DNA from: a virus
DNA length: 37,782 nucleotides
Virus record (IMG/VR): IMGVR_UViG_3300028008_000041
Coordinates: 1-37,782 of that record
Strand: one strand, 5' to 3'
Below the pieces are notes generated by a model, which made no database searches, had not been told where the DNA came from, and was given only the letters and a program-made list of their open reading frames with translations. Position numbers and translations under genes: made by a program. Below are positions 7,302 to 23,813 of the stretch, in pieces. How positions within the stretch are numbered: position 1 is the stretch's first letter; every line of letters starts with the position of its first letter.

Positions 7302-7332
7302 AAAAAGCACTCATTTATGGGTGCTTTTTTTT
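7302..7332 (+). terminator. Rho-independent terminator after gp23
   Basis: AAAAAGCACTC pairs with GGGTGCTTTTT (one G-U pair) around a 6-nt loop, followed by a run of T. It closes the head-gene cluster. Confidence 0.85.
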
Positions 7333-7357: not shown

Positions 7358-7365
7358 CTAAATAG
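7358..7365 (+). promoter_or_regulatory. Possible degenerate late promoter (CTAAATAG)
   Basis: AGCTAAATAGTAATG partly matches the late element, in the otherwise empty 7333-7461 spacer upstream of the next virion gene. It is weaker than the other copies. Confidence 0.3.
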
Positions 7366-7461: not shown

Positions 7462-7821
7462 ATGGGTAGACCAATAGATAAGTATTTTTTAGGCTTAACA
7501 GGCGGTAGTCCAGCTACTATTCCTGTAAGAGGAAAAGTTTCAGGATCAGCAGAATTTGAAGGGTATATTAAGAATCAAAAAGGTTCTAACAAGTTTACAA
7601 TTTCAAATGATGGCGGTACAGTAGAAGGTGTTTGCTACTTAGTAAACAAAGTTACTGGACTGGCAGATGCAGAATGTGCTATTGTTGGACAAGCAACAGG
7701 CGAAAATGTTGCTATTCAAAAAATCACTGCACACAAAGCAGTTGGTTTTAATGGTACAGTTTATTCGTGGGCAGTAGCAGACGATTCAGCAGAATCTCTA
7801 ATCATCCTCACAGCTCTATAA
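7462..7821 (+). CDS. Small putative virion structural protein
   Basis: Start chosen at the ATG at 7462 (MGRPIDKYFLG), 7 bases after AAGGAGA, rather than an in-frame TTG at 7435; this gives 119 aa. It is a beta-rich Gly/Thr/Val protein without signal peptide or membrane segment. Proteins starting with MxRPIxKxxxG and found just after gp23 recur in marine myoviruses, where they are regarded as virion proteins; a capsid-decoration or head-associated role is plausible but not shown by the sequence. A terminator-like hairpin lies just downstream. Confidence 0.8.
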   Translation: MGRPIDKYFLGLTGGSPATIPVRGKVSGSAEFEGYIKNQKGSNKFTISNDGGTVEGVCYLVNKVTGLADAECAIVGQATGENVAIQKITAHKAVGFNGTVYSWAVADDSAESLIILTAL

Positions 7822-7844
7822 TTCCTAAAATTATATAGTCAAAG

Positions 7845-7880
7845 AATCCTTTGTGTTAAATACAGCACAAGGGATTTTTT
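7845..7880 (+). promoter_or_regulatory. Hairpin with late promoter in its loop and Shine-Dalgarno in its 3' arm
   Basis: AATCCTTTGTG (7845-7855) pairs with CACAAGGGATT (7866-7876), with one G-U pair, and is followed by six T's ending at the ATG at 7881, so it can act as a terminator for the upstream gene. The 10-nt loop holds TTAAATAC (7856-7863), a late-promoter element. The 3' arm contains AAGGG (7869-7873), the only Shine-Dalgarno for the next gene. A read-through transcript would hide this site, whereas a transcript starting near 7868 would lack the 5' arm and expose it. Confidence 0.7.
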
Positions 7881-8450
7881 ATGACTTATGGATTTGCATT
7901 AGGTAACGGCCGCAGTAGGCAAAAGATAAACGTACAGAAAATAAGAAAGTACGGCCTTGTTGCTGGGTGTAATAGAATATACGAAGAAGAAGCAGTTGAC
8001 ATACTTGTGGCCACAGACAGACAGATGGCAAAGGAAATTGAAGATACTAGGTATGGGCTAACACATGAGTTTTGGACACGCAGACCAAGACCTGATACAG
8101 GTTCTAGAAAGTTAGAAAGACCAACATACGGTTATTCGTCAGGGCCTGCTTCTATTGCTTTGCTCTGTGAAAAAGGATGTACTAAAATTTATTTGTTAGG
8201 TTTTGATCTTGGGTCACCCGATCAATATGTTAATAATTTATATGCTGGCACAGCTCACTACAAAACAACAGACATGAAACCTACCTACTACGGCAATTGG
8301 ACCAAGCAACTACAGCAAGTATGCGATAGATGGAGCAATAATACATTCTATAGAGTAATGGGTCCTGAAAGTACTTGTTATGATTTTGAAAGAGCAAATA
8401 TCATTGATATAGATATAAGCAAGTTTACAACTATGATAAATAGTTTATAA
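7881..8450 (+). CDS. Rossmann-type DUF115/sialyltransferase-like protein (copy 1)
   Basis: A 189-aa soluble protein. The N terminus is a beta-strand plus Gly loop (FALGNGRSR, 5-13), followed by VDILVATDRQM and, after ~90 residues, an SSGPASIALL segment and KIYLLGFDLG. This pattern (Gly-x-Gly-x-Ser near the N terminus, later hhLLGFD) is seen in DUF115/MptE-like and sialyltransferase-like Rossmann proteins that act on sugar-nucleotides or nucleotide donors. It shares this architecture with the gene at 23091. Role unknown: it could modify virion or host-surface glycans. It lies directly after a regulatory hairpin and before the first fibre gene. Family assignment is a motif-level judgement. Confidence 0.6.
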   Translation: MTYGFALGNGRSRQKINVQKIRKYGLVAGCNRIYEEEAVDILVATDRQMAKEIEDTRYGLTHEFWTRRPRPDTGSRKLERPTYGYSSGPASIALLCEKGCTKIYLLGFDLGSPDQYVNNLYAGTAHYKTTDMKPTYYGNWTKQLQQVCDRWSNNTFYRVMGPESTCYDFERANIIDIDISKFTTMINSL

Positions 8451-8462
8451 TAGGATAAAACT

Positions 8463-19464: not shown

Positions 19465-19497
19465 TTGACCTTAAGATCTAATAACTTTTCATTCGTG

Positions 19498-23090: not shown

Positions 23091-23813
23091 ATGCAAGAAA
23101 TTTACCGTAAAGATTATGACGGTGAATATGTTGTTCTTAACACTTCTATTCAAAACGGAAAACGTGTAACTGAAAAAGAATGGGTCGATAACCCAATCGA
23201 GAATCAGCATATATCAGGTAGAGCCGCTATTATAGCTAGTGGCGAATCTAGAAAAACATTTGACGTTTCGAGACTACAGCGACATAGAGGCGGATTGCTA
23301 GGCCGCAAAAAACTTCAGACATACGGAACAGGTCAACTTCATAAAGAAATGCAATTAGATTTCTTTGTTTCGTTTGATGAGAAAAAACTAAAAGAATGTG
23401 TTGAGTTAGGCTACACAAGCCGAGCAACAGTTTACACATCAGCAAAACAATGTTTATTAACACCTGGAGAATTCTTTTTAGTACCACAATCAATGCGAGG
23501 ACGTACTGCTACTGTTGCGGCCTGGTTAGCATGTTTTGATGGACACAAAGAAGTGTTTTTACTAGGGTTTGATGGACAACAGTGTGATGGTTACAACAAT
23601 AACATTTATGTTTCTAGTGATGATCCAGATAAGCATAGAACTATTGAGGATCATAAAATCCGAAATCAAATGAAACAGTTAATGACAACTTACTTGGGTG
23701 TAGATTTTTATCATGTTAGCAACGGTGAATCTATCTACAACGAGTGGAAAGAATGCCCGAACTTTAAATCTATGTCTTATCCAGAATGGATTAGTTACTG
23801 CGACGTACAGTAA
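23091..23813 (+). CDS. Rossmann-type DUF115/sialyltransferase-like protein (copy 2)
   Basis: 240 aa, ATG one base after the previous stop. After a ~40-aa N-terminal segment comes RAAIIASGESRKTFDVSRL (Gly-loop of a Rossmann-like strand), then LDFFVSFDEKKLKECVELGY, and GRTATVAAWLACFDGHKEVF leading into LLGFDGQQCDGYNNNIY. The hhLLGFD motif and the early Gly/Ser loop match the 7881 protein, though overall identity looks low. C-terminal part is aromatic with DFYHVSNGESIYNEW. Possible donor-binding glycosyltransferase-like enzyme for glycan or virion modification; enzyme activity is not established by the sequence. It is the last gene of the plus-strand fibre island and converges with the Nudix gene 3 bases away. 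Confidence 0.6.
   Translation: MQEIYRKDYDGEYVVLNTSIQNGKRVTEKEWVDNPIENQHISGRAAIIASGESRKTFDVSRLQRHRGGLLGRKKLQTYGTGQLHKEMQLDFFVSFDEKKLKECVELGYTSRATVYTSAKQCLLTPGEFFLVPQSMRGRTATVAAWLACFDGHKEVFLLGFDGQQCDGYNNNIYVSSDDPDKHRTIEDHKIRNQMKQLMTTYLGVDFYHVSNGESIYNEWKECPNFKSMSYPEWISYCDVQ

Follow-up and report, generated by a model that had tools for sequence, protein, structure and literature searches.

The described systems closest to the element analysed here are phage leaders in which a hairpin hides the ribosome binding site (RBS). In T4 gene e, late RNA starts past the 5′ arm and early RNA runs into the gene (PMC3014915), and in the leaders of T4 soc, 49, I-TevI and segB and of Aeh1 mobE the RBS is sequestered on the long RNA and freed on the late RNA (PMC2988022). 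The e leader of the T4 record folds as AAATACCTTCT-ATAAATAC-TTAGGAGGTATT-ATG (−13.3 kcal/mol), with an 11-bp stem, the late promoter TATAAATA in the loop region, the Shine-Dalgarno (SD) sequence GGAGG in the 3′ arm and the AUG right behind. By sequence reading, T4 soc is arranged differently, with its AUG paired and its SD in the loop.

Our element lies in the window, the whole 37.8-kb fragment of a T4-like phage that was analysed, and it has the same order of parts as the e leader, an analogy drawn in the initial annotation of this DNA and borne out by the T4 record. It differs from that leader in its T-run, which e lacks (GGAGGTATTATG), so that e is not a terminator, and in its setting: e is carried on early read-through RNA and encodes lysozyme, whereas gp23 and other late genes precede the present locus, whose gene is not a lysozyme gene. 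Likewise, soc, 49, I-TevI, segB and mobE sit on early or middle transcripts and none is described as a terminator in the review that covers them (PMC2988022), whereas the element in the window is terminator-like.

Direct reading of the sequence gave an 11-bp stem with a single G-U pair (7850-7871) and four G-C pairs; four T stay unpaired when the A-T pairing at the stem base is formed. The ATG of the downstream gene follows at 7881 (Table 1). The coordinates given in the initial annotation are all correct. The minimum free energy of 7835-7900 was −23.5 kcal/mol, compared with a mean of −8.6 for shuffled sequences (z −6.35), and none of 200 shuffles equalled it. Besides this hairpin, the only near-perfect stem of at least 11 bp in the window was that of the gp23 terminator. 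The hairpin at 7845-7876 is non-random. A terminator scan with a loop limit of 8 overlooks the element (7845-7880).

Table 1. Coordinates in the window of the element and of the genes and signals around it
Feature	Position	Strand	Basis or remark
5′ arm of hairpin, AATCCTTTGTG	7845-7855	+	direct reading, folding, covariation; strand pairing with the SD
Loop TTAAATACAG	7856-7865	+	direct reading; TAAATA at 7857-7862, late-promoter core TAAATAC at 7857-7863
3′ arm of hairpin, CACAAGGGATT	7866-7876	+	direct reading, folding, covariation
AAGGG SD within 3′ arm	7869-7873	+	direct reading, SD-opening computation
T6 tract, putative terminator U-tract and SD-AUG spacer	7875-7880	+	direct reading, T-run count
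Predicted late RNA start, 6-7 nt past TAAATA	7868-7869	+	inferred from the T4 rule
Portal gp20	1501-3234		gene calls/annotation of window
Prohead protease gp21	4321-4950		gene calls/annotation of window
Scaffold-like gene	4963-6060		gene calls/annotation of window
gp23	6083-7258		gene calls/annotation of window
Intrinsic terminator after gp23, 12-bp stem, T8	7302-7329	+	stem scan; a separate late promoter comes after
TAAATA late-promoter core of upstream gene	7359-7364	+	motif scan; TAAATA at the same place in distant relatives
Upstream gene, ~119 aa, ATG with GGAG before it	7462-7821	+	ORF list extends to TTG 7435
Downstream gene, 189 aa, MptE-like (former DUF115)/GT42 sialyltransferase-like fold	7881-8450	+	second gene after gp23

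The small gene upstream of the element matched no Pfam or PHROG family. An AT-rich palindrome, TATAATTnnnnnAATTATA (7817-7838), spans its stop codon and is kept in most close relatives, being broken in L154. For the protein encoded downstream, the predicted structure was confident (pLDDT 93), and its nearest solved folds were the GT42 sialyltransferase CstII and relatives, with MptE-type HPPK lower in the list. Together with a best score of 0.0011 among relatives for the Pfam family MptE-like (former DUF115), these matches make the earlier label “DUF115-like” a reasonable one; the enzyme class is uncertain because the TM-scores were near 0.5. The window holds another copy of the MptE/GT42-like gene at 23091-23813, diverged to 24% identity. 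The gene order gp21-scaffold-gp23-small gene-MptE/GT42-like gene-8463-9100-9421-9945 is conserved into a distant group. Gene 8463 has a sigma-70-like TTTACA-16-TATAAT and a TAAATA late core within the same 30 bases (8424-8451), inside the end of the preceding gene.

The loop holds the core of a T4-type (gp55) late promoter, a strand-biased TATAAATA-like −10 found 5′ of late genes, but the two bases that precede TAAATA are GT, where the T4 consensus has TA. TAAATA(C) recurs 5′ of genes in the window at 1506, 3232, 3535, 7359, 9848, 19499, 22430, 28288, 34379 and 37707. Across 81 related loci, intergenic TAAATAC outside the element was found 91 times in the forward and 13 times in the reverse orientation, and the sequence comparison points to TAAATAC as a real promoter signal in these phages; counts of TAAATACT across entire records were not informative. 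At other sites of the window a terminator and a promoter stand apart, as in the gp23 terminator followed by the promoter at 7359 and in similar pairs near 19475/19499 and 34360/34379. At 7845-7880, in contrast, they are fused. The other terminators of these phages share with the element a hairpin and a T-run after a stop codon, but most of them have TTCG or GCAA tetraloops or, like the one after gp23, another tight loop, and their promoter lies apart, a little further downstream, whereas here a loop of 6-10 nt holds the promoter-like motif. A genome-wide design of late promoters within terminators was considered and rejected, the arrangement being confined to this locus.

Relatives were gathered by searches with alignments of the 7881-8450 protein and of gp23, and 142 distinct ortholog proteins were analysed after removal of duplicates. 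In about 130 of the 142 orthologs, a hairpin and T-run precede the start codon and the loop contains a promoter-like motif; automatic detection returned 127 elements, and five further ones (L257, L341, L348, L356, L363) were visible in its output. Among loci fetched with gp23, and thus unselected for the element, 16 of the 18 carriers of the MptE/GT42-like gene have it. Close relatives (73-100% protein identity) retain AATCCCTTGT-GTTAAATACGAT-ACAAGGGATTTTTTATG with small changes, and the layout is retained, with nearly every base altered, across a large uncultured family of T4-like water phages. True absences (L164, L174, L195, L197, L199, L277, L281) fall on the side of the family with sigma-70 elements. 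In L204, L205 and L206 a terminator (gggaggatttttcctccctttttt) is followed by a separate sigma-70 promoter, in tandem, un-fused and not nested. No ortholog carrying the element was found among the isolated phages of INPHARED, and genome contigs yielded just remote homologs in other contexts, with the element absent. Scanning viral contigs for the pattern CTTGT..TAAATA..ACAAG returned mostly chance matches in coding regions; the loci that it retrieved were excluded from the statistics on loop motif, covariation and trees, except L089, a duplicate contig of L006.

The elements fall into two classes. Class A, to which the window belongs, comprises 81 distinct elements with a G-A/C-TANNTA-C loop, an SD in the 3′ arm and a T-run between SD and AUG, typically in the form AATCCTCTCAG-cTACATA-CTGGGAGGATT-TTTT-ATG. 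With one mismatch allowed, GRGGATTTTTTATG is found a single time in the majority of the class A records that contain it, and in the window solely at this site. T-A-N-N-T-A is present in the loop in 81/81 cases, is followed by C in 75 and ends 14-19 nt before the ATG; the variants are TACATA (39), TAAATA (13), TAAGTA (10), TAACTA (8), TAATTA (7) and TATATA (4). TANNTA was present in 7.5% of shuffled centres and in 14 of 101 other terminators, several of the latter being these same hairpins in reverse orientation. Because inspection of the loops came before the definition of the motif, these contrasts are descriptive.

Stem pairing was kept in the relatives through compensatory changes. In 51 class A sequences, 80 cells were changed on both sides of a pair, compared with 29.7 in shuffles, and the covariation score was 0.426 against 0.232 for shuffled alignments (0/500), slid controls not exceeding 0.18. 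An arm-swap test gave 0/1000 for class A and for class B. These comparisons argue that base pairing in class A stems is under selection.

With regard to the T-run, the last six bases contain five or more T in 78 of the 834 SD-led ATG genes of all loci, and this element accounts for 71 of those 78. A T-run in the SD-AUG spacer is thus nearly unique to this locus, and a role as U-tract would explain a spacer of this kind. The 38 nt before the ATG had a family median folding energy of −17.3 kcal/mol. In the window, the computed cost of opening the SD was 14.2 kcal/mol on read-through RNA, compared with 4.1 or 2.1 kcal/mol when the RNA began at 7868 or 7869; the family medians were 11.7 kcal/mol on read-through RNA and 0.6 from the predicted late start. 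Predicted late leaders are just 10-13 nt long and begin with the SD or a little before it. In agreement with what the initial annotation had proposed, the hairpin is terminator-like in its stability, its U-tract and its near-unique T-run, the RBS is predicted to be hidden on read-through RNA, and the late-type core is so placed that late RNA would lack the 5′ arm. Its expectation that the loop TAAATAC would be conserved held for the T-A-N-N-T-A frame of class A but not for the exact TAAATA, found in just 13 of the 81 elements, and class B has a sigma-70 loop instead.

Class B, the sister clade, comprises 42 loci with 23 distinct elements (L155-L209, e.g. L157:3946-4000), placed immediately before the start codon of the ortholog. 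Here the loop supplies the −10 box of a sigma-70 promoter of the form TTGAC-17-TATAAT, with a spacer of 17 bp in 20 elements and 18 bp in 3, as in TTGACT-AATCTAAGGGTTACAGT-TATAAT-AAACTGTAACC-TTTTTT-ATTGAC-ATG. TATAAT with TTGAC 17-18 bp upstream is what sigma-70 promoters have; unlike them, class B uses the terminator 5′ arm as spacer and the loop as −10 box, and its 3′ arm carries no SD. Compensatory stem changes were again present (GGTTACAG/CTGTAACC, GGATACAG/CTGTATCC, AAACCACAGTA/TACTGTGGTTT); column-based covariation was unusable, the arm register shifting by one, and the arm-swap test was used for this class. Genes adjoining class B elements retain TAAATAC promoters in the same phages. 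Of 14 larger related records, 11 yielded a gp55-type late sigma (phrog_234; E 1e-23 to 8e-27), both classes being represented; the window record, itself a fragment of 37.8 kb, lacks phrog_234. The protein tree places the 89 class A rows opposite the class B side (51). L226 has class B-like arms and a loop, GATAATTAC, readable as a late variant or as a −10-like hexamer; it groups with the class B side (92/95), and because it does so on a long branch, its role as a transitional form between the classes is only suggestive. At its core, the conserved element is a putative terminator whose loop contains the promoter of the next gene, and RBS hiding is an addition of class A, because class B keeps the hairpin and the loop promoter with no SD in the arm.

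Two loci offered a natural control. In L260 (4357-4438) and L266 (19691-19775) the MptE/GT42-like gene has been lost, leaving a stub in L266; hairpin and T-run stay and the loop motif is gone. The pattern, seen in two cases only, would follow from a hairpin working for the upstream unit and a loop motif working for the gene.

From these comparisons we consider it probable that the 36-base element combines an intrinsic terminator with a promoter for the next gene, placed in the terminator loop, an arrangement which would uncouple that gene from gp23 transcription. We infer termination, start site, translation block and purpose from sequence, as follows. RNA arriving from the gp23 side would fold the hairpin and mostly stop at the U-tract just before the AUG; on RNA that reads through, the SD would stay paired and translation would be prevented. 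Late RNA polymerase would recognise the TAAATAC of the loop and start within the 3′ arm, and the new late RNA, free of the 5′ arm, would present an accessible SD 7-8 nt before the AUG. The net effect would be that the MptE/GT42-like gene is uncoupled from the very strong transcription of gp23 and has its own, probably weaker, late expression. Counting against this reading are the one-base deviations from TAAATA in 68 of 81 class A loops, the GT before TAAATA in the window, the shortness of the predicted late leaders, the four G-C pairs among 11 and the few unpaired T of the window hairpin, and the orthologs on the sigma-70 side that lack the element.

In a different reading, the element would be a switch of timing of the T4 gene e type, keeping the product off early and middle read-through RNA so that it is made only late, with termination incidental. 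The T4 e leader (AATACCTTC TATAAATACTTA GGAGGTATT ATG) with the same part order speaks for it, as do reviews that describe the mechanism for e, soc, 49 and I-TevI (PMC2988022, PMC3014915). However, the only recognisable promoters upstream of the element, at 1506, 3232, 3535 and 7359, are all late-type and serve the portal, prohead and gp23 genes, and no early transcript over the locus is evident from the sequence. The near-exclusive T-run also counts against this reading, as does class B, in which hairpin and T-run accompany a sigma-70 promoter and an arm without SD. We regard it as unlikely. Because the incoming RNA would, by its sequence, be late RNA from head genes, insulation from gp23 read-through appears likelier than strictly late timing; the initial annotation's idea that the product is kept strictly late is not upheld, the blocked RNA probably being mainly late.

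It is also quite improbable that the element combines a terminator and an RBS only, with expression from partial read-through and with the loop acting, in place of a promoter, as an RNA motif (UANNUAC) for a regulator that opens or locks the hairpin. T4-like phages do have translational repressors that bind hairpins, as at the gp43 operator (PMC3014915), and the loop variants TACATAC, TAAGTAC, TAACTAC and TAATTAC were not enriched at other genes of the related loci, yet T-A-N-N-T-A is invariant in the loop. Promoter strength is doubtful for the 68 of 81 class A loops that lie one base off TAAATA, because such variants lack this enrichment. On the other side, exact TAAATA is present in three separate clades, and the sister clade has in its loop the −10 of a complete sigma-70 promoter. 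Loop flanks also match those of late promoters: class A has G at −2 (81%), A/C at −1 (82%), C at +7 (93%) and T at +8 (58%), and the canonical late promoters of the same loci have G 45%, A/C 68%, C 52% and T 48%. The class A flanks thus appear to follow the late-promoter preferences of the same phages, although the G and C also close the stem. That the variants are a different late consensus of those phages was rejected, TAAATAC being used elsewhere there. Most relatives' loops are probably weaker, one-base variants of the late consensus, and they suggest a deliberately weak late promoter, an RNA motif being less likely. That the element is a terminator only, with a promoter-like loop arising by chance in AT-rich loops and an SD in the stem as a by-product of short intergenic space, is very improbable, for although the genome is AT-rich and TAAATA alone is no more frequent in the window than expected (33 copies against 50 expected), TANNTA fills every class A loop far above its frequency in shuffles, stems change in compensation while the motif stays fixed, and the motif is lost where the gene is lost.

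Returning to the terminator with a nested promoter, we lean towards the broader view that it is a three-in-one device, in which a terminator has the downstream promoter as its loop and a 3′ arm that can be the RBS, and whose layout survives rewriting of the stem and exchange of promoter class from late sigma to host-type sigma-70, so that a gene beside the strongest transcription unit would be insulated and restarted within 40 bases. Such a natural design would extend the gene e arrangement in two ways, the hairpin doubling as terminator of the neighbouring unit and the loop promoter being exchangeable for one of another class with the hairpin kept. A literature search returned no description of a promoter within a terminator loop, its thin coverage of subscription journals making this weak evidence of absence, and no case of a 5′ terminator arm used as sigma-70 spacer with the loop as −10. 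The element suggests that pipelines annotating terminators and promoters as non-overlapping objects will miss such sites. With its many stems, two promoter classes and natural gene losses, the family would make the parts separable by experiment.

In six unrelated phages (L108, L095, L086, L035, L039, L138), TAAATA or TATAAATA lies in a CTTGT..ACAAGGG hairpin just 5′ of an ATG, GGTTCCCTTGTATAAATAACATAAACACAAGGGAACCATAACATG in L108 being an example; these hairpins are possible independent leaders of the gene e type.
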